Assembly (NCBI GenBank): GCA_012729395.1
Contig: JAAYDF010000170.1
Coordinates: forward strand, 1 to 32,124
Direction of reading: 5' to 3'
Length of the DNA: 32,124 nucleotides
Source of the DNA: Phycisphaerae bacterium
GTDB taxonomy: Bacteria; Planctomycetota; Phycisphaerae; UBA1845; PWPN01
The notes beneath the pieces are model-generated. The model saw only the letters and a list, made by a program, of their open reading frames with translations, was not told where the DNA came from and did no database searches. This document shows, in pieces, positions 3,205-27,419 of the stretch. Position 1 is the stretch's first letter. Each line of letters opens with the position of its first letter. A program made the translations under genes and the position numbers.

Positions 3205-3221
3205 CCGCGAAGCGGCAAGCC
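3205..3221 (-). repeat. Copy of dispersed intergenic repeat core
   Basis: Read on the minus strand this is GGCTTGCCGCTTCGCGG. The same 15-17-nt core occurs between genes at 7834-7848, 20817-20833 and 27313-27327, and with one change at 9045-9059. Here it lies between nadB and the methyltransferase gene. A G+C stem-loop (CGCCCG / CGGGCG, 3246-3265) stands between it and the nadB stop. Confidence 0.65.
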
Positions 3222-5016: not shown

Positions 5017-7731
5017 ATGCCGCAACGCATCGCGAGGATACTGCGCGCGACGATGGCCGTGGGACTCACCTGCCTTGTCAGTCAGGGAGCCGGCTCGTCG
5101 GCGATGGCCCAGGAGCCAAGGCGGTCCGCCGCACCGGCCACCTCGCCCGCCGACGACCGTCCACCACTGGCCACCCGGCGAATCGTCAAAGCCTTCGACT
5201 TCGACGAACAGTCGCTGGGCAACTTCGGCACGTTGCCCATGGGGTGGCGGAGACACGGCGGAGCGGGATTCCCTCTTTATCTCGAAGGCCGCTTCGACCA
5301 CGAGATCGGCCAAGCCAAGCCGCCGAGCTTCCGGCTCGATCTCGACGGCGGATCGATCGGCTACCACTACGAAGGCCGCGACATCGCCGTTCGCCTCAAC
5401 AGCGACTATCTCATCGTCGCGTTGGTCAGGACAGCGGGTTTGGACACCGCTCGCGCCTACATCGCCGCGTATCTTCTGGATCGTCATGGGCAGGTGATTG
5501 CGGGGACCGAGCGAGCGAGCGAGTTCGCTGGCGGCACGGATACCGACACCGATTGGGAACCGTTGACCATCCCCATACGCTGCGACATTCCTGAAGCTCG
5601 CTACATGGGCCTGAGCCTGTGGCTGACGCAGCAGAAGATTTGGGACCATGGCTCCAGGCCTGCCAGGGCGATCGAGCATGAGGACATCAAGGCCAGTGCG
5701 TGGTTCGACGATCTGGTCGTCTATCGCATGCCGCGCGTGGCCCTTCGCACCGCTCAGCCGGGACAAGTCTTCGGGGAGAACGACCCGGTGGCCGTCCTGG
5801 CCGAGGTGAGCGATCCCGACGGTCTCAACCTGGCCGCCCAACTCACCCTGCGATCCATCGACGGCCACGTCCACGAGGAGCGCGAGGTCGCCGTTCAGAC
5901 GGCCGACCAACACGAACCGCAGCAACTCGTCTTCGCCGACCTGCCGGTGGGCTTGTATGAAGCGGAACTGGTCGTCTCGACCGAAGGTGCCACGTTGGTG
6001 CGTCAGGGACTCCGGTTGGCTCGCGTTGCTGGGCGGACCGGCCCGCCGGTGGCCACCGGCCACGGCTTTGGAGTCATCCTCAGTGACATTCCTCCCGCAG
6101 TGCTGTCAGGCCAGCAGGCACTCCTGCAGGAGCTGCGCCCGGACCTCGTCAAAGTCCCTGTCTGGCATGCCCAATCGGCGTTCAGCAATCAGCCGCTCGA
6201 CCGTGACGCCGTCGATGCCTATCTCGAGGCCATCCGCCAGACCCAAGCGGATCCGGTCGGCATGCTCATGGACGACCCCGGCTTCTCGCCCGCGGCCGAC
6301 GGCACGCGCCTCATGGCCATGCTGGACATGTTCAACGAGGATCCGCTGGCCTGGAAGCACTTGGTCGCTCCCACGTGGACGCGATACGCCGGTCTGATCC
6401 ACGTCTGGCAGCTTGGAGACGACAATCACACGTGGGTCGGCCTCGATTCGCGTCTGTCCGCTCTGGTTCCGCGGTTACGAGAGCAGATGAGCGACCTGAT
6501 GACCGAGCCGCTTCTGGCGGTGACCTCCTCAGCCATCTATGCATCACCGTCGGCGGGCCCGGGCAACTACCGATCGGTGTTGGTGCCTTCGTATGTGAAC
6601 CCCGCGGACTTCGCGGCTTGGCTTGGGCCACTGGTGGGCCAGGATGCGGACCGCTTGTGGGTCACCGTGGAGGCGTTGCCGGAGAGCCCCTACCCGAGGA
6701 TGGCGCGGTTGGCCGACCTCGGCAAGCGTCTGGTGGAGACCTATGCCCAGGGCGTCGGAACGGTGTTCATGCGGGCGCCGTGGGAGGCGGCCGCTGGCCA
6801 GGCCCTTCCTCGCACCGACCCACTCGAGGATTTCATCATCCTGCGTACCGTCGCTGACGTGCTTGGCGACGCCAAGCCGATCTCGCGCACCAGTCTGGAT
6901 GGCCGTGTCCAGTGCCTGGTGTTCGATCGAAACGACTCGGCCATTCTGTGTGTCTGGGATGACGACGCACCTCCTGAGGGCGAGGTACATCAGCTTCTGC
7001 TCGGCGACAACCTGTTCCAGGTCGACCTGTGGGGTCGGAAGACCCCCTTACCGACCACGGGACGGTACCAGAGCGTGCGGATCGGGCCGACACCCACCTT
7101 CATCCTCAACGCCCTCACCTGGATGGTCGAGTTCCGGCGGCAATTCGTTGCGCGGCCCACCACCATCGAGGCCAGCTTCGATAACCTGGAGTTCGAGATC
7201 GAGTTCCGCAACACCTACCATGACCGCATTGGCGGGATATTGAGGCTCATGCTGCCGGAGGGCTGGGAGTTGCGCCCCAACCGGTTGCCGTTTTCCCTGG
7301 CCCCCGGAGAGGTCTTTCGTCACAAGATCTCCTTGCGATTTCCGCTCAACGCCGAGGCTCGCACCATGCCCTTGCTCGGCGAGTTCGCCCTCGACGCCGA
7401 CCGCAGGTACGTCTTCACCACACCCGCATGGTTCGAGTTCGGGCTCAAAGGCATCGACTCGCACGCCTTCGCCTTCCGCAGCCGCGATCAGGTGACCGTC
7501 CGGCTGATGATGACCAACCGGACCGGGCGTACGGTTCATTTCGAGAGCTATGTGGTCGCTCCCGACCGCCAGCGGATCGAGCGGTTGGTCTCGAACTTCG
7601 AGCCCGGGCAGACGATCCTCCGCACTTTCGTCATCTCCGAAGCCGCCGACCTGGCCGGCCGCGACCTCCGCGTCGGACTCCGCGAGATTCAGGGGACGCG
7701 GATGTGGAATCAGGTCGTCGCCGTGCCGTAG
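5017..7731 (+). CDS. Large secreted protein of unknown function with a possible TIM-barrel core
   Basis: A protein of 904 residues that I cannot assign to a named family. It has a signal peptide (about 1-31, ending SSAMAQ). Next is a beta-rich region (about 50-230) resembling a carbohydrate-binding jelly roll, and then an Ig-like region (about 240-330) with PGQVFGENDPVAVLAEVSDP. The central region (about 345-640) has alternating strands and helices, with RPDLVKVPVWHA, DPVGMLMDDPG and YAGLIHVWQLGDDNHTW. This is reminiscent of a glycoside-hydrolase TIM barrel, where a 'WQLGNE' motif would supply the acid/base; here the residue is Asp. The C-terminus (about 700-900) is beta-sandwich. It is divergent from nadB across 84 nt. 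Export is well supported; catalysis is not. Confidence 0.7.
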   Translation: MPQRIARILRATMAVGLTCLVSQGAGSSAMAQEPRRSAAPATSPADDRPPLATRRIVKAFDFDEQSLGNFGTLPMGWRRHGGAGFPLYLEGRFDHEIGQAKPPSFRLDLDGGSIGYHYEGRDIAVRLNSDYLIVALVRTAGLDTARAYIAAYLLDRHGQVIAGTERASEFAGGTDTDTDWEPLTIPIRCDIPEARYMGLSLWLTQQKIWDHGSRPARAIEHEDIKASAWFDDLVVYRMPRVALRTAQPGQVFGENDPVAVLAEVSDPDGLNLAAQLTLRSIDGHVHEEREVAVQTADQHEPQQLVFADLPVGLYEAELVVSTEGATLVRQGLRLARVAGRTGPPVATGHGFGVILSDIPPAVLSGQQALLQELRPDLVKVPVWHAQSAFSNQPLDRDAVDAYLEAIRQTQADPVGMLMDDPGFSPAADGTRLMAMLDMFNEDPLAWKHLVAPTWTRYAGLIHVWQLGDDNHTWVGLDSRLSALVPRLREQMSDLMTEPLLAVTSSAIYASPSAGPGNYRSVLVPSYVNPADFAAWLGPLVGQDADRLWVTVEALPESPYPRMARLADLGKRLVETYAQGVGTVFMRAPWEAAAGQALPRTDPLEDFIILRTVADVLGDAKPISRTSLDGRVQCLVFDRNDSAILCVWDDDAPPEGEVHQLLLGDNLFQVDLWGRKTPLPTTGRYQSVRIGPTPTFILNALTWMVEFRRQFVARPTTIEASFDNLEFEIEFRNTYHDRIGGILRLMLPEGWELRPNRLPFSLAPGEVFRHKISLRFPLNAEARTMPLLGEFALDADRRYVFTTPAWFEFGLKGIDSHAFAFRSRDQVTVRLMMTNRTGRTVHFESYVVAPDRQRIERLVSNFEPGQTILRTFVISEAADLAGRDLRVGLREIQGTRMWNQVVAVP

Positions 7732-7745
7732 CGGCCACCCCTTAG

Positions 7746-7768
7746 CGGCCGCCCCCCCGTGGCGGCCG
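7746..7768 (+). terminator. GC-rich stem-loop after the 904-residue protein gene
   Basis: CGGCCGCC (7746-7753) and GGCGGCCG (7761-7768) form a perfect 8-bp stem with a 7-nt loop, starting 15 nt after the stop at 7731. No U-tract follows, so termination may need Rho, or this may only be structure at the 3' end. GCGGCC recurs four times between 7731 and 7786. Confidence 0.4.
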
Positions 7769-7833
7769 GGCTGCGGCGGCCGGGTTGGTGACGCGAGACA
7801 GAACGAGTGTATTGGCGGTGTCGCCCCTCCGCC

Positions 7834-7874
7834 GCGAAGCGGCAAGCCATGAGCAGCCGTCCACGCGATTCGAT
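7834..7874 (-). repeat. Left arm of a 41-nt inverted repeat flanking the acyltransferase gene
   Basis: Read on the minus strand, this block matches 9019-9059 on the plus strand at 39 of 41 positions. It begins ATCGAATCGCGTG and ends with the dispersed core GGCTTGCCGCTTCGC. With the heptad array at 7892-7975 it forms a composite unit whose mirror image lies beyond the gene. Confidence 0.85.
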
Positions 7875-7891
7875 CCGTCCCCGATAGCCTC

Positions 7892-7975
7892 CCCTTCACC
7901 TTGCCCCCTTCTCCCCCAACCTTTAGCCCTTCGCCTTCGGCCTTGGGCCTTTCGCCTTTGGCCCTCAGCCTCCCA
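7892..7975. repeat. Heptanucleotide array, 12 units, upstream of the acyltransferase gene
   Basis: Twelve in-phase 7-nt units of the pyrimidine-rich type CCYTTNG, such as CCTTTAG, CCTTCGG and CCTTTGG, fill 84 nt without a break. On the other strand they read as purine heptads of the same type as the array at 8932-9008. The units are degenerate, so the period is clearer than the exact sequence. Confidence 0.75.
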
Positions 7976-7976
7976 C

Positions 7977-7989
7977 CGGTACAATACCG
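7977..7989 (+). promoter_or_regulatory. Inverted repeat containing a TACAAT -10-like box before the acyltransferase start
   Basis: CGGTACAATACCG is a 5-3-5 inverted repeat in which TACAAT (7980-7985) resembles a -10 element. The ATG follows at 7994, so transcription from here would yield an almost leaderless message. No good -35 is visible because that position lies in the heptad array. Confidence 0.35.
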
Positions 7990-7993
7990 CCCC

Positions 7994-8938
7994 ATGGCTC
8001 GGCAGCATCCCATTACTGATTGGCCTGCGTACGCCCTCGTGCGCGTCGTGGCCATGCTTTTCCAGATGTTTCCCATCGACCTCAATCTACGCACCGCGCG
8101 TCTCATGGGTACCATCTGGTTTCACCTCATACGCCGGCATCGCGAGCGAGCCTGCAACCATCTGCGGTTGGCCTACGGCGATCAACTGAGCGACGCCGAG
8201 GTCCGTCGTCTGGCGCTGGCCTCCATGCAGCAGTTGACCATGATGGCCATCGAGGTGCTCTTTACTCCCCGCCTCATCAATGAGTGGACTTGGCCGCGGT
8301 ATATTCGCCTCAAGGGCATCGATCGGGCCATGGAGGTTCTCGTCGCCCGTCGGGGTGCAATTCTGGTCACCGGCCACTACGGGAATTGGGAGCTGGTTGG
8401 CTTCATGCTTGCCACCTTGGGCTTCCCCCTGACCGCGGTGATGAGGCCGCTGGACAACCCCTACCTCAACCGCCATCTCATGGACGTGCGGGCGAAACGA
8501 GGCCTCAAACTGCTCTACAAGAAAGGGGCTTCGCGGTCGGCCGCCGACGTCCTCAACGCCGGTGGGCTCCTCGGCTTCATCGCCGACCAAAACGCCGGCC
8601 ACAAGGGGCTGTTTGTCGATTTCTTCGGCCACAAGGCCTCGACCTACAAGTCGATCGGATTGTTGGCGATGCAGCACAACGCACCTATCCTGGTCGGTTG
8701 TGCCCGCCGAATCGTCAGCCCCGGACACTGGAACGACGGCCGGTTCCGCTATGAGGTCGAGTGCAGCCGTATCATCCTGCCCGAGGAGTGGGCCCGCCAA
8801 GTGGATCCGCTCGCATGGATCACCCAGGAGTACACGATGGCCATCGAGCAGGCCGTACGCCAAGCACCCGAGCAGTACCTGTGGACGCATCGCCGGTGGA
8901 AGTCACGGCCGAGGGGGGAGGAGAAGACGGAAGGCTAG
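7994..8938 (+). CDS. Lipid A biosynthesis acyltransferase (LpxL/HtrB family)
   Basis: A 314-residue inner-membrane acyltransferase expected to add a secondary acyl chain to a lipid A precursor using acyl-ACP. The catalytic HX4(D/E) motif is H128-Y-G-N-W-E133 within TGHYGNWELVG. The family signature FIADQNAGHKGLFVDFFG and a late WTHRRWKSRPRG are present, and an N-terminal hydrophobic segment (about 11-30) anchors it. I start at the ATG at 7994, where family homology begins; the open frame continues upstream into the heptad array. There is no Shine-Dalgarno. The last codons and the stop lie inside the downstream heptad array, so the repeat appears to have shaped the C-terminus (EEKTEG). Confidence 0.9.
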   Translation: MARQHPITDWPAYALVRVVAMLFQMFPIDLNLRTARLMGTIWFHLIRRHRERACNHLRLAYGDQLSDAEVRRLALASMQQLTMMAIEVLFTPRLINEWTWPRYIRLKGIDRAMEVLVARRGAILVTGHYGNWELVGFMLATLGFPLTAVMRPLDNPYLNRHLMDVRAKRGLKLLYKKGASRSAADVLNAGGLLGFIADQNAGHKGLFVDFFGHKASTYKSIGLLAMQHNAPILVGCARRIVSPGHWNDGRFRYEVECSRIILPEEWARQVDPLAWITQEYTMAIEQAVRQAPEQYLWTHRRWKSRPRGEEKTEG

Positions 8939-9008
8939 AGGCGCAAGGCTGAGGGCTCAAGGTTAAAGGCTCAAGGATAAGGGATAAAGGACAAAGGCTG
9001 AACGCTGA
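8932..9008. repeat. Heptanucleotide array, 11 units, downstream of the acyltransferase gene
   Basis: Eleven in-phase units of the type RGGNTNA (AGGCTGA, GGGCTCA, AGGATAA and others) cover 77 nt. The first unit contains the stop codon of the acyltransferase gene. The array is the mirror image in type and position of the one at 7892-7975. Confidence 0.78.
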
Positions 9009-9018
9009 CCGCAAAGGC

Positions 9019-9059
9019 ATCGAATCGCGTGAACGGCTGCTCATGGCTTACCGCTTCGC
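9019..9059 (+). repeat. Right arm of the 41-nt inverted repeat
   Basis: This matches the reverse complement of 7834-7874 with two substitutions. It ends GGCTTACCGCTTCGC, a one-base variant of the dispersed core. It lies 10 nt after the heptad array; on the left side the gap is 17 nt. Confidence 0.85.
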
Positions 9060-9092
9060 AGACTCCCAACAAACCTTCCTCACCCGCGTTGG

Positions 9093-9121
9093 TTGACTTG
9101 GTTTTGTGGGCTTCCTACAAT
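9093..9121 (+). promoter_or_regulatory. Sigma-70-type promoter for trxA
   Basis: TTGACT (9093-9098) and TACAAT (9116-9121) are separated by exactly 17 nt. Transcription would start near 9128, giving a leader of about 100 nt before the thioredoxin ATG at 9227. Confidence 0.65.
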
Positions 9122-9226
9122 CCGGCCGTATACGACGGTGGCTGTCGGCGATGTCGCGATCTCTTGACGCCAAGCCACCTTTCCAGCAGTGGATCGTGAT
9201 CGCCTTACTGACGGAGGATACGCCCC

Positions 9227-9559
9227 ATGGCAGGCATCCACACCATAGAATTCACCGAAGCGAACTTCGAGGCCGAGGTACTCAATGCCGCGGGACCGGT
9301 TCTTGTCGATTTCTGGGCGGAGTGGTGCATGCCCTGCAAGGCCCTCGGCCCAACCATCGACGACTTGGCCACGCAGTACGCCGGAAAGGCCAAGGTTGGT
9401 AAGGTGAACACTGACGCCAATCAGTCTCTCTCCGCCAAGTTTGGCATCAGTGCCATCCCGACGGTGATCCTGTTCAAAGACGGCGAGATCAAGGAGAAGT
9501 TCGTCGGCCTGCGCAGCAAGCAGGACTTCGCCGCCTCGATCGACGCCCTGCTCAGCTAA
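9227..9559 (+). CDS. trxA: Thioredoxin
   Basis: A 110-residue cytoplasmic thioredoxin, a dithiol-disulfide oxidoreductase that reduces protein disulfides. The redox centre is W-C34-M-P-C37, in FWAEWCMPCKAL. The cis-proline is in AIPTVILFKDG, as in the family. The CMPC centre differs from the common CGPC; a residue change between the two cysteines can alter redox potential. The start at 9227 has CGGAGGAT upstream. A good promoter lies at 9093-9121, and the next gene follows after 6 nt, so the two are probably co-transcribed. Confidence 0.95.
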   Translation: MAGIHTIEFTEANFEAEVLNAAGPVLVDFWAEWCMPCKALGPTIDDLATQYAGKAKVGKVNTDANQSLSAKFGISAIPTVILFKDGEIKEKFVGLRSKQDFAASIDALLS

Positions 9560-13825: not shown

Positions 13826-16800
13826 CTATGGCTCAAGACAATCCGGGTTGCCGGGCACCTCCGCACCCGAGAAACACCCCAGGAACGCATTCAGATCCAG
13901 CACGTCGATGATCGGATGGCCCGCCAAATTCGTGGGAACGCACGCCGCCTCAATCCGGGAGTCGAGGCCCAGACAGTTCTGCAGCACGGCGAAATCATCC
14001 AGATCCACGTCCTCGTCGTCGTCGAAGTCGCCGGGGATCGCCGGCTCCATCACCACGACCTCCACCATGTCGCTGGCCTCCTGGCTCAGCGCGTCCGTGA
14101 CGCTCAGCGTGTACGTTGTGGTCGCCTCAGGCGAGGCCGTGGGCTGCAGCAGCTCGGGGTTGTCCAAACCTTCCTGAGGTGTCCAGGCGAAGAAGTACGG
14201 CGGCGTACCGCCACTGACCGAAGCTGTCAGAACAGCCGATCCGCCAGGGACAATCTGCTGATCTGGACCAGCATTGACAAGCAACGCCGGCGGCACACAG
14301 GGGTTCGGATCGCAAACCGTCCCGTCGCCTTGGTAGCTCCCGCCCGCGGCCGCGCAGTCCATCGCAAGCATTTCCTCGCACACTTCGCCGGGCAGGCAGC
14401 ATGCCCCACTCTGGCTGGGGTCGATGATCAAACCGTTACGCAGCTCAACGTTATCCACGAAGCTGTATCGTGCCGCACTGCTCAGCGGGTTGCCCATGGT
14501 CATGCTGACCCGGTTGAATCCGCCCTTGTACGTTCGCGGGAGGGTATGCGGGCCGCGGATCACCGGCGCAGTCGTCTCGCCGGGATTGGTGAGTTGGATT
14601 GTGACCGTATCGGATCGAATGACCATCTTGAAGGTGGTCGGCCCGCCGTAGGAACTCTTCCACAAGCCAACGGGCTGCCCGGTGTCCACGTCGTACATCT
14701 GCTTGGTGTAATGCCAACGCTGCCCGTCGAAGTAGCAGGCAGCCCCAAACGTGCCGGCACCTTCGGCGTCCTCCGGGGCACGATTGACCGCACAAAACGA
14801 CCCGATCCCCAACACATGGTGCTCCTGGTCCGCTCGCCAGGGGCCTTGGTCGCCGTTGCCGATTGGATCGGGGTCTTCCGTGGTCATGCCTTGCCGCGGC
14901 GCCTGCTCATCGTCCAAAGACAACTCGATATAGAAGTTCGAGCGACTCCCGTAAGTCTCCCCACGAAAATCCATGGTGAACTCGAGCGTCAAGGGCTTGT
15001 CGTCGGTACCCAGCAACACATGGCCCGTGCCGATGCCCTCGTTGCCCTGCCCGTAACTGCTGACCATGTCCGGCTCAAGATTGGCGGTCATGCGATAGGA
15101 GGCTTTGGTGGTATGCATGGCTCCACCGCCCGGTTCAACGCCCACGTTGGTGGAGAAGCTACCGCCGGTCGAGCCGTCGTAGCTGTAGGTCAACGGCCAG
15201 CGTGCCCGCATCGAGGACAGGCTCCACGATCCGATCTTCTTGTCGCCGGTCAACATGCCGTCGAACTTCTCGTTGAGCCGCCGGCCGCCAAAAGGCGATG
15301 GATCACAGACGTCCCCGATGCCGTCCTCGTCATCGTCGGCTTGATCGGGGTTCTGGTGGAACGGGCAGTTGTCACAAAGATCGCCCACCTCGTCGTCGTC
15401 CGTGTCGAGCTGCTCGGCGTTGGAGTCGAACGGGCAGTTGTCGCAGGCGTCGCCCAGCCCGTCCCCGTCGCTGTCGAGCTGGTCGGGATTGCCGTCGGAC
15501 GGGCAGTTGTCGCAGGCGTCACCCACCTCATCGTCATCCTCGTCATCCTGATCGGGATTGGCCACGTAGGGGCAGTTGTCCTGCGCGTTGAGGTCGCCGT
15601 CCCCGTCAATGTCCGGGTCGCAGGCATCGCCCATGCCGTCATCATCGGTGTCCGCCTGGTCCGGATTGCGCACTGCCGGGCAGTTGTCACACGGATCGCC
15701 CACGCCGTCGCCGTCCGTGTCCGGCGGAATCACCGTCACCGCCAGCAGAGCCTGCCCCTCGATAATCGCCTCGGCCACCTGTTGCCGGTAGGCGTACAGC
15801 ACCGCCGGATCGCGGGTGAAGCCCGACGTGGTCAGGTGCGACACCACACTGGGCGGCACCGAGAGCAGTGCACGAGCCGATTCCACATAGTCAATGACCT
15901 GCTGCGTCTCGGGGCAACGCCCGAGCCGGCCGGCAATGTCTTTGAGCAGGTGCAGGTACTCGTAGTCCTCCAGCCCATCGCGAATGTTGTGCGAGCGAAT
16001 CGAAGGCAGCGGGCCGACGTTCGTCGGGCCCGGGTAGTAGATGCACCCATCCGCGTCGGTAAAACCGTTGTACTTCTCACTGTACAACGTGCGGGCATCC
16101 CAGTTCGTGTAGGGCCCGCCGGTGATGAGCGCGTTCTTGTCCATGCGACCCGACTCAACAAGGTTGTAGCCATAGTTGGTCACAGCGTAGTACAGGAATC
16201 CGCTGGGGTTGTACTTGAAAGTCATCGCACCGAGTAGCAGGCGGGCTTCGATCGACGGGTACTCCAGAAGCCAGTTCGCCCCGGTCGGATGGCGGGGGTA
16301 CTCGGCCACGTACCACCACATGTCCTTGCCCTCGGCTCGCAGGGACTCGGCCGCCGCCATGTCGTAACCCACCGTGCCCGGCACCCAAATGTCTACCGCG
16401 TCCCGCAGGAAGGAGCTTAACGGCGAAGTGCCGTAGCTGGCGTCGTACGCCGTGGTCATGGTCCGCAAACCGGGATATTGGCTATGAATCGCCGTGAAGG
16501 TATTGTACATCTCCTGGAACTTGTCCGAGCTCACCTCGTCATAACCGTAGACGTACGCTTCGTTCAGACGCCCCAGGCCGTTGTAGTAGTTGTACAACGT
16601 GGTCAAACCCGACGGGTTGTTCGTAGGCACCTTGCTGAGACACACGGCCGTGTTGCGGGGCAACCAAGACGCGTGCCAGCTTGTCCCTTTCGGCTGCGAG
16701 TAGATCTCGGTCACGCTCAGCCGATGGTCCTGCTGCATCTGGTAGTACTTGTTCAGGATGGTTTCAGACCAACCGCCGCCGTAGACCCAACTCGCTTGCC

Positions 16801-17488
16801 ACAAGCTGTCGATGGAGAAAGCCGTCGGCAAGCTCGGCCGGACCGGTAGCTCGAAATCCCACACGCGGACCGTCAGGTCCAACGTGATCGGGGTAAGCCC
16901 GTTGGCAGCGACAGTCACGGTGGCGGCGTAGTCCCCAGGCGGCGTGCTGGCCAGCGTGCGCACGTTGACCCAAAAGGCCACGCGGTCGTTGGCGCTGATG
17001 TTGCAGGTATCCATGAAAGTCAGGAGCGGGTCCGGCCACCAGCCGCCACTGTGGGTCAGGTTGTAGTTGACCAGGTATGGCGGATACTCGATGCTGAGGT
17101 CGGAACGCGGCTGGGCGGCTCCCTTGACGTGGCCGACCACCCAGGTACTCACCGTCCCGTTGAACGCCCCCTGCCCGCTCTGCGGCTGTAACGCCGAGAC
17201 CGTCACCCGGGCGTTGGTCAGATCCTGGTCGGGAATCACGACGACCTGGAAGGCCTCGTGCTCATTGCGCGCCAGGGCCAAATTGTACGAACTCGCCAAC
17301 TCGCCCTCGTAGGGAGCGAACGGCCAGCCCAGATGCTGCCCTTTGATCATCACCTTATGCATCGGGGTGGACACGCCGATCTGGACGTTCGTCGCCCAGA
17401 CCGCTTCCGCCAGCGCCACTGTCAACAGGCACCCCACCCAGAGCCGCAGCTTTGGCTTCAGGGCACGCACACACCTGCATTGCCGCAT
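13826..17488 (-). CDS. Secreted GH123/DUF4091 protein with thrombospondin type 3 repeats and dockerin-like tail
   Basis: A 1220-residue modular protein. It has a signal peptide (about 1-32). The GH123/DUF4091 region (about 33-560) has the adjacent acidic pair D317-E318 in [10 protein letters not shown], matching the Asp-Glu catalytic pair of GH123 beta-N-acetylgalactosaminidases. The end of this region has [14 protein letters not shown]. Six calcium-binding TSP3 units (about 590-735) repeat the pattern DxDxDGxGDxCDNCP. A beta-rich LamG-like region follows (about 735-1010), then a Cys-rich [13 protein letters not shown] motif, a PKD-like domain (about 1060-1140), and a dockerin-like end with [27 protein letters not shown] lies 7 nt before the ATG at 17488. 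It probably acts on extracellular glycans. Confidence 0.88.
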
Positions 17489-20379: not shown

Positions 20380-20591
20380 CGATTGCCGGTTGAATGGGGT
20401 GTAACTCGCCTCCCACCCGATTGAATGGAGATGGGCAGCCTGGGGTTTGAGGCGGGGAGAACGCGAGCCGTGAAGGTGCGGGCGACGACATGATGGAGGA
20501 GGGAATTCGGGCTCTGCGGCTGCGCGACAAGAATCAAGGAGTTCAGGCTTTGCGGCTGCGTGATGGGAATTGCGGCTCGCGGCCTCACCGC

Positions 20592-20731
20592 TCGGATTGC
20601 AGATCTCAGATTGTGGATTTCAGATTGCAGATTGCCGATTTCAAGTCTCAGATCTCAAATCTCAAATCTCAGATCTCAGATCTCAGATCTCAAATTGCAG
20701 ATTTCGGATTCCAGATCTCGGATCTCGGGTT
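20592..20731. repeat. Heptanucleotide array, 20 units
   Basis: Twenty uninterrupted 7-nt units fill exactly 140 nt. The commonest are TCAGATC, TCAAATC and GCAGATT, and TCAGATC occurs three times in a row at 669-689 of this kilobase. Degenerate units at both ends (TCGGATT, TCGGGTT) keep the phase. The organisation resembles short tandemly repeated heptamers described in cyanobacteria, but the sequence is different. Confidence 0.88.
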
Positions 20732-20816: not shown

Positions 20817-20833
20817 GGCTTGCCGCTTCGCGG
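20817..20833 (+). repeat. Copy of dispersed intergenic repeat core
   Basis: GGCTTGCCGCTTCGCGG follows the heptad array by 85 nt, in the same orientation relative to its array as at the two acyltransferase-flanking sites. Confidence 0.7.
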
Positions 20834-27312: not shown

Positions 27313-27327
27313 GGCTTGCCGCTTCGC
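27313..27327 (+). repeat. Copy of dispersed intergenic repeat core
   Basis: GGCTTGCCGCTTCGC in the gap between tRNA-Arg and the GH10 gene. No heptad array is visible beside this copy. Confidence 0.6.
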
Positions 27328-27419
27328 TGCGCCACGCGCAGCCGGCGGCGAGGTGTGAAGCAAGCTGCTTGGGGCTTAACTCACCTTCCTCGCGCCGGCA
27401 GACGGCGAACGACGCTCGA

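Follow-up and report, generated by a model that had tools for sequence, protein, structure and literature searches.

The two inverted arms that flank the lipid A acyltransferase gene in this window (the whole stretch of DNA analysed, 32,124 nucleotides) very probably belong to a family of short intergenic repeats specific to this lineage, two copies of which lie in opposite orientation beside an undisturbed lpxL-type gene. A repeat search of the window recovers the arms at 7834-7874 (minus strand) and 9019-9059 (plus strand) as 41-nt inverted blocks that are 95% complementary and 1144 nt apart. They are identical at 39/41 positions, a level of agreement that is far beyond chance over 1.2 kb. 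Between them lie further inverted stretches at 7917-7971 and 8946-9000 (55 nt, 73% complementary), and TRF places period-7 arrays at 7920-7970 and 8931-9008. The left array (7917-7971, minus strand) is built of AAGGCNN-like units read on the minus strand. The right array (8931-9008, plus strand) has replaced the end of the acyltransferase gene and provides its last codons and its stop, the TAG at 8936-8938. The preliminary description had reported both the mirror-image blocks with heptads on their inner sides and the stop codon inside the right array, and both observations are confirmed. The enclosed gene (7994-8938, plus strand, with the start taken as the ATG at 7994) encodes a lipid A biosynthesis acyltransferase of the LpxL/HtrB type (lpxL/htrB), matching PF03279 (Lip_A_acyltrans) with an E-value of 2.5e-39 in a profile scan. 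Homology between the arms continues 2 nt beyond the 41-nt block and stops where a 17-nt core, GGCTTGCCGCTTCGCGG, finishes; this core forms the outer end of the left element as an exact copy (7832-7848, minus strand) and that of the right element with two mismatches (9045-9061, plus strand). Three further copies lie elsewhere in the window, at 3205-3221 (minus strand), at 20817-20833 (plus strand; it follows an AGATNNN-type heptad array, 20591-20726, at a distance of 93 nt) and at 27313-27329 (plus strand; one mismatch). The resulting count of five core copies was reached in 0/100 shuffles.

Across the 5.74 Mb genome the 41-nt block is found only three times at up to three mismatches, in the two arms and on contig C78 (2945-2985). 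A sequence model of these three copies gave weak matches at a dozen more sites, mostly to its last 25-35 positions, and it was the alignment of those sites that revealed the common 17-mer. The core is present in 38 exact copies, 67 copies with up to one mismatch and 91 with up to two, while a reversed-pattern control yields none and four at the latter two thresholds. Its orientations are balanced (30:37), and some 57 of the 67 copies fall outside the called genes, whatever the directions of the genes on either side; genes were called by a simple codon score with unrefined starts, and some placements inside genes are probably wrong. Each of 40 relatives, 12 of them from the same family, contains between zero and two copies, and the repeat family therefore belongs to this lineage. 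Neither a relaxed consensus nor the 41-nt block matched anything in genome_contigs or viral_contigs, collections from which near-identical genomes may be left out. A reading as a known structured RNA was rejected, with no Rfam match in window positions 7000-9300 or in 20 copy loci. The repeat is an undescribed family, whose members may bear arrays of seven-base units on a single, fixed side. The earlier suggestion of two copies of one repeat family inserted in opposite orientation is supported by a third array and block at C78:2941-3009 and by the dispersal of the core at 67-91 sites.

Alignment of 75 copies on the core reveals graded conservation upstream, strongest at CGCGAG (about -21 to -16), at AA (-13/-12) and at CC before the core, with little conservation downstream. 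CGCGA, allowing one mismatch, is found at -21, -20 or -19 in 46/75 copies. A family member reads, from 5' to 3', as an optional heptad array, 30-90 nt with CGCGAG near -21, and GGCTTGCCGCTTCGCGG. The third copy of the array and block, at an unrelated locus 3' of a hemD-like gene (its putative product resembles uroporphyrinogen-III synthase), has its heptad array on the same side and brackets nothing. The three 41-nt copies agree pairwise at 39, 38 and 38 positions, the left-right comparison being the highest (39/41 vs 38/41). The spacer AGGCTGAACGCTGACCG is common to the right arm and the C78 copy, and the left arm lacks most of it. Within this three-member subfamily, similarity reaches 120-130 nt upstream of the core, taking in the array, and stops at the last base of the core (0 nt downstream). 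A second pair of loci, L118 and L160, has matching sequence on both sides of the core, and the core end is therefore not the limit in every copy. The subfamilies indicate copying of whole units. At L118 the core is enclosed by ATGACGTA...TACGTCAT in a MITE-like arrangement. Pairing of the left arm with the core folds barely better than random (z about 1.3), so that the palindrome, and with it the likeness to REP elements, is weak for most copies; some copies do fold well, and the family mean is just slightly better than that of random left arms. RNAalifold and mutual information, applied to the 75 copies, support no covarying stem beyond the internal 4-bp CCGC/GCGG hairpin of the core. A longer stem with a conserved downstream CAAGC partner was set aside as a minority feature, since it is found in 7 copies against about one expected.

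The heptad arrays and the core are joined with a fixed polarity, the array standing 5' of the core. When TRF was applied to the sequence within 200 nt of the 75 aligned cores, arrays with a period of seven or a multiple of it were found 13 times upstream and once downstream (binomial p 0.002), and a period-7 signal was seen upstream in 11 cases and downstream in none. A paired upstream-downstream test of period 7 across all copies gives p 0.06, because most copies have no array. A pattern search for (AAGGCTN)4 identified six distinct loci genome-wide, five of which have a core at their 3' side (C58, C78, the right arm on C137, C233 and C259; the right arm and C78 belong to the same subfamily and are not independent), and the sixth, on C211, does not. 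Given this polarity, the succession of arm, heptads, gene, heptads and arm amounts to two composite units that point outwards. For heptads of a second class, AGATNNN, the genome contains 269 overlapping matches that cluster at many sites, whereas a reversed control gives none. A tie between this class and the core was rejected, as the class is abundant throughout the genome and, in the places listed, lies mostly away from the core. In the family relative G009, the three AAGGCTG array loci found there (L178, L181 and L183) are each followed, at a distance of a few tens of bases, by an array in inverted orientation, and each could form one long heptad stem-loop.

Comparison with relatives shows that the acyltransferase gene occupies its ancestral position and keeps its ancestral direction. 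A homologue is present in 60/60 relatives searched (in a few of them only a distant paralogue), and the gene order is conserved. The downstream neighbour in the window, a thioredoxin gene (9227-9559, plus strand; PF00085), lies 3' of the acyltransferase gene and in the same direction in seven relatives (G002, G011, G008, G007, G003, G012 and G017). In one of these, G007, the acyltransferase gene is also preceded by a homologue of the upstream neighbour, a gene for a 904-aa protein with a weak NPCBM_assoc match (5017-7731, plus strand). No arms or heptad arrays were seen by eye in the non-coding sequence beside the gene in those seven relatives. The probable promoters adjoining the arms, both identified by eye, are likewise shared: a TACAAT box, probably the -10 box of the acyltransferase gene (7980-7985, plus strand), has recognisable counterparts right before the start codon in several relatives, the left array extending to the -35 region of this promoter, and the thioredoxin promoter TTGACT-17-TACAAT just past the right element (9093-9121, plus strand) resembles boxes in G002 and G011. 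The intergenic spaces flanking the gene measure 262 and 288 nt in the window, compared with about 110-130 nt upstream (G007) and 77-174 nt downstream in relatives, as expected if each space had gained a unit of about 130 nt. Since the gene keeps the position and orientation that it has in relatives, it has been neither moved nor flipped.

These comparisons bear directly on the proposal of the preliminary description that the structure is a mobilised or invertible cassette. On such a reading the arms would be the ends of a transposon or of a recombining segment, and the enclosed gene would be cargo or the segment that switches. Although inverted arms of 39/41 identity and mirrored arrays do bracket exactly one gene, the order and orientation of that gene are ancestral, no displacement or inversion of the gene with respect to relatives was found, the core is dispersed singly, the third copy of the block brackets nothing, and both probable promoters stand beside the arms in recognisable form. 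A scan of six neighbouring genes returned no transposase or recombinase match, and the earlier statement that no transposase is present stands for the immediate neighbourhood but not beyond it. A cassette is therefore highly improbable. The preliminary description had itself allowed that the enclosure would be chance if the block occurred singly at hundreds of sites with the gene in the same place in relatives; this is essentially what we find, with single dispersed copies and the gene in place, but at dozens of sites and not hundreds. For 67-87 randomly placed copies, 0.9-1.6 pairs less than 1.2 kb apart are expected by chance, or about 0.2-0.4 of this spacing and geometry, and another inverted pair of cores, 339 bp apart and facing each other, is known on C180; close pairs of core copies are therefore nothing unusual. 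Random landing is a poor explanation, however, for the 1.2 kb distance between two members of a 41-nt subfamily that numbers only three (a post hoc estimate of about 0.001-0.004), and this points to local copying or gene conversion as a likely origin. The specific possibility that the second arm derives from the first, through local duplication or gene conversion, is compatible with two family members beside an undisturbed gene and concerns only the origin of this pair. The proximity of the two and their highest block identity speak for it, but the stretch common to the right and C78 copies, spacer included, is longer than that common to the right and left copies, and we advance it tentatively.

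A serious rival to a mobile repeat is that the core is a putative protein-binding site, with a chromosome-organising or regulatory role, where selection would preserve the 17 nt and the CGCGAG located 21 nt upstream and would leave the flanks free to drift. It is serious because the core is much more strongly conserved than the sequence around it, being near-invariant among mostly unrelated flanks, and both the locked position of CGCGA and the graded upstream conservation are consistent with it. On balance we nevertheless think it unlikely: the core is nearly absent from 40 relatives (12 of the family and 28 others), which is unusual for the site of a conserved binding protein, the copied flanks of several subfamilies show physical copying, and the copies favour neither a particular position nor a particular strand with respect to genes. 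The dispersal of the core, the third copy of the unit and the ancestral position of the gene lead us instead to conclude that two composite repeat copies landed in two intergenic spaces. The number of copies, their random orientation and mostly intergenic location, their confinement to this one of the genomes searched, the array-to-core polarity and the ancestral position of the gene are all observed. Most likely, a small non-autonomous repeat has spread in trans with arrays as passengers. In such a scheme the family would be mobilised in trans in the manner of a REP or MITE, the array, where present, would travel with it and lengthen by slippage, and the acyltransferase gene would not be cargo. 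No empty site at nucleotide resolution, target-site duplication or mobilising enzyme was found. It is a good deal more doubtful that the family represents a novel type of interspersed element in bacteria, one that ends 3' in a fixed core and bears a 5' tail of tandem heptads, which is spread by an enzyme and whose core end sets the site and direction of the array; its layout would be comparable to that of eukaryotic elements with tandem-repeat tails, though not its ancestry. A false cassette is replaced with a defined repeat family whose heptad-array polarity can be tested, and were arrays found to form consistently to one side of a mobile core, this would offer a testable origin for the heptanucleotide arrays of several bacterial groups.

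The core repeat resembles REP elements and REPINs (repetitive extragenic palindromes), which include GTAG- and CGTC-tagged families (PMC3733652), in being short, dispersed, intergenic and lineage-specific, with tens of copies in both orientations. It differs from them in having no fixed GTAG or CGTC tag, only a weak, imperfect palindrome, and heptad arrays on one side. Column counts of the aligned copies revealed no such fixed tag. The genome has 11 matches to Y1_Tnp, of which the six for which loci were extracted have no core at up to two mismatches within 1.5 kb, and just two stray matches with three or four mismatches; the remaining five have no listed core within 1.5 kb by coordinates. Mobilisation of the core by a RAYT was accordingly rejected, no Y1_Tnp gene having been found beside it. 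With both tag and RAYT association tested and neither found, the core repeat falls outside the tagged REP families and is also distinct from the GTAG-REP/RAYT system of this genome. One locus (L171; G000:C312, about 10.0-13.4 kb) has a RAYT-type Y1_Tnp gene between inverted GTAGCGGCCG sequences, a REPtron-like arrangement of GTAG-REP/RAYT-like character, and a degenerate copy of GTAGCGGCCG adjoins the left arm at 7728-7785 of the window.

Other known repeats are alike in part. Geobacter metallireducens has a 49-copy heptanucleotide element with four GGGACCG repeats, found also inside genes (PMC2700814), which shares with our family GC-richness, dispersal, tandem heptads and tens of copies in one species; here, by contrast, the array is optional, its unit is variable and it lies outside the conserved core. 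Arrays of the fixed heptamer TAACTGA are known from Beggiatoaceae, Cyanobacteria and Bacteroidetes and, in a Beggiatoaceae genome, mostly lie just 5' of start codons (PMC4679880). These too are intergenic heptanucleotide direct repeats, whereas the units described here vary and a 17-nt core follows the array. MITEs and composite transposons offer a parallel as non-autonomous dispersed repeats and as an inverted pair around a gene, but the present family has no family-wide terminal inverted repeats, no target duplication has been shown for it, and the gene is not mobile. Several cores (L099, L149, L151 and L159) have near them a further palindromic repeat, CCACGAACAAGTTCGCTCGGTCC, which is itself dispersed and sometimes tandemly arranged. 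Elsewhere in the window, a 69-nt tandem repeat of 3.8 copies is present at 15322-15580, within a large ORF on the minus strand (13826-17488).
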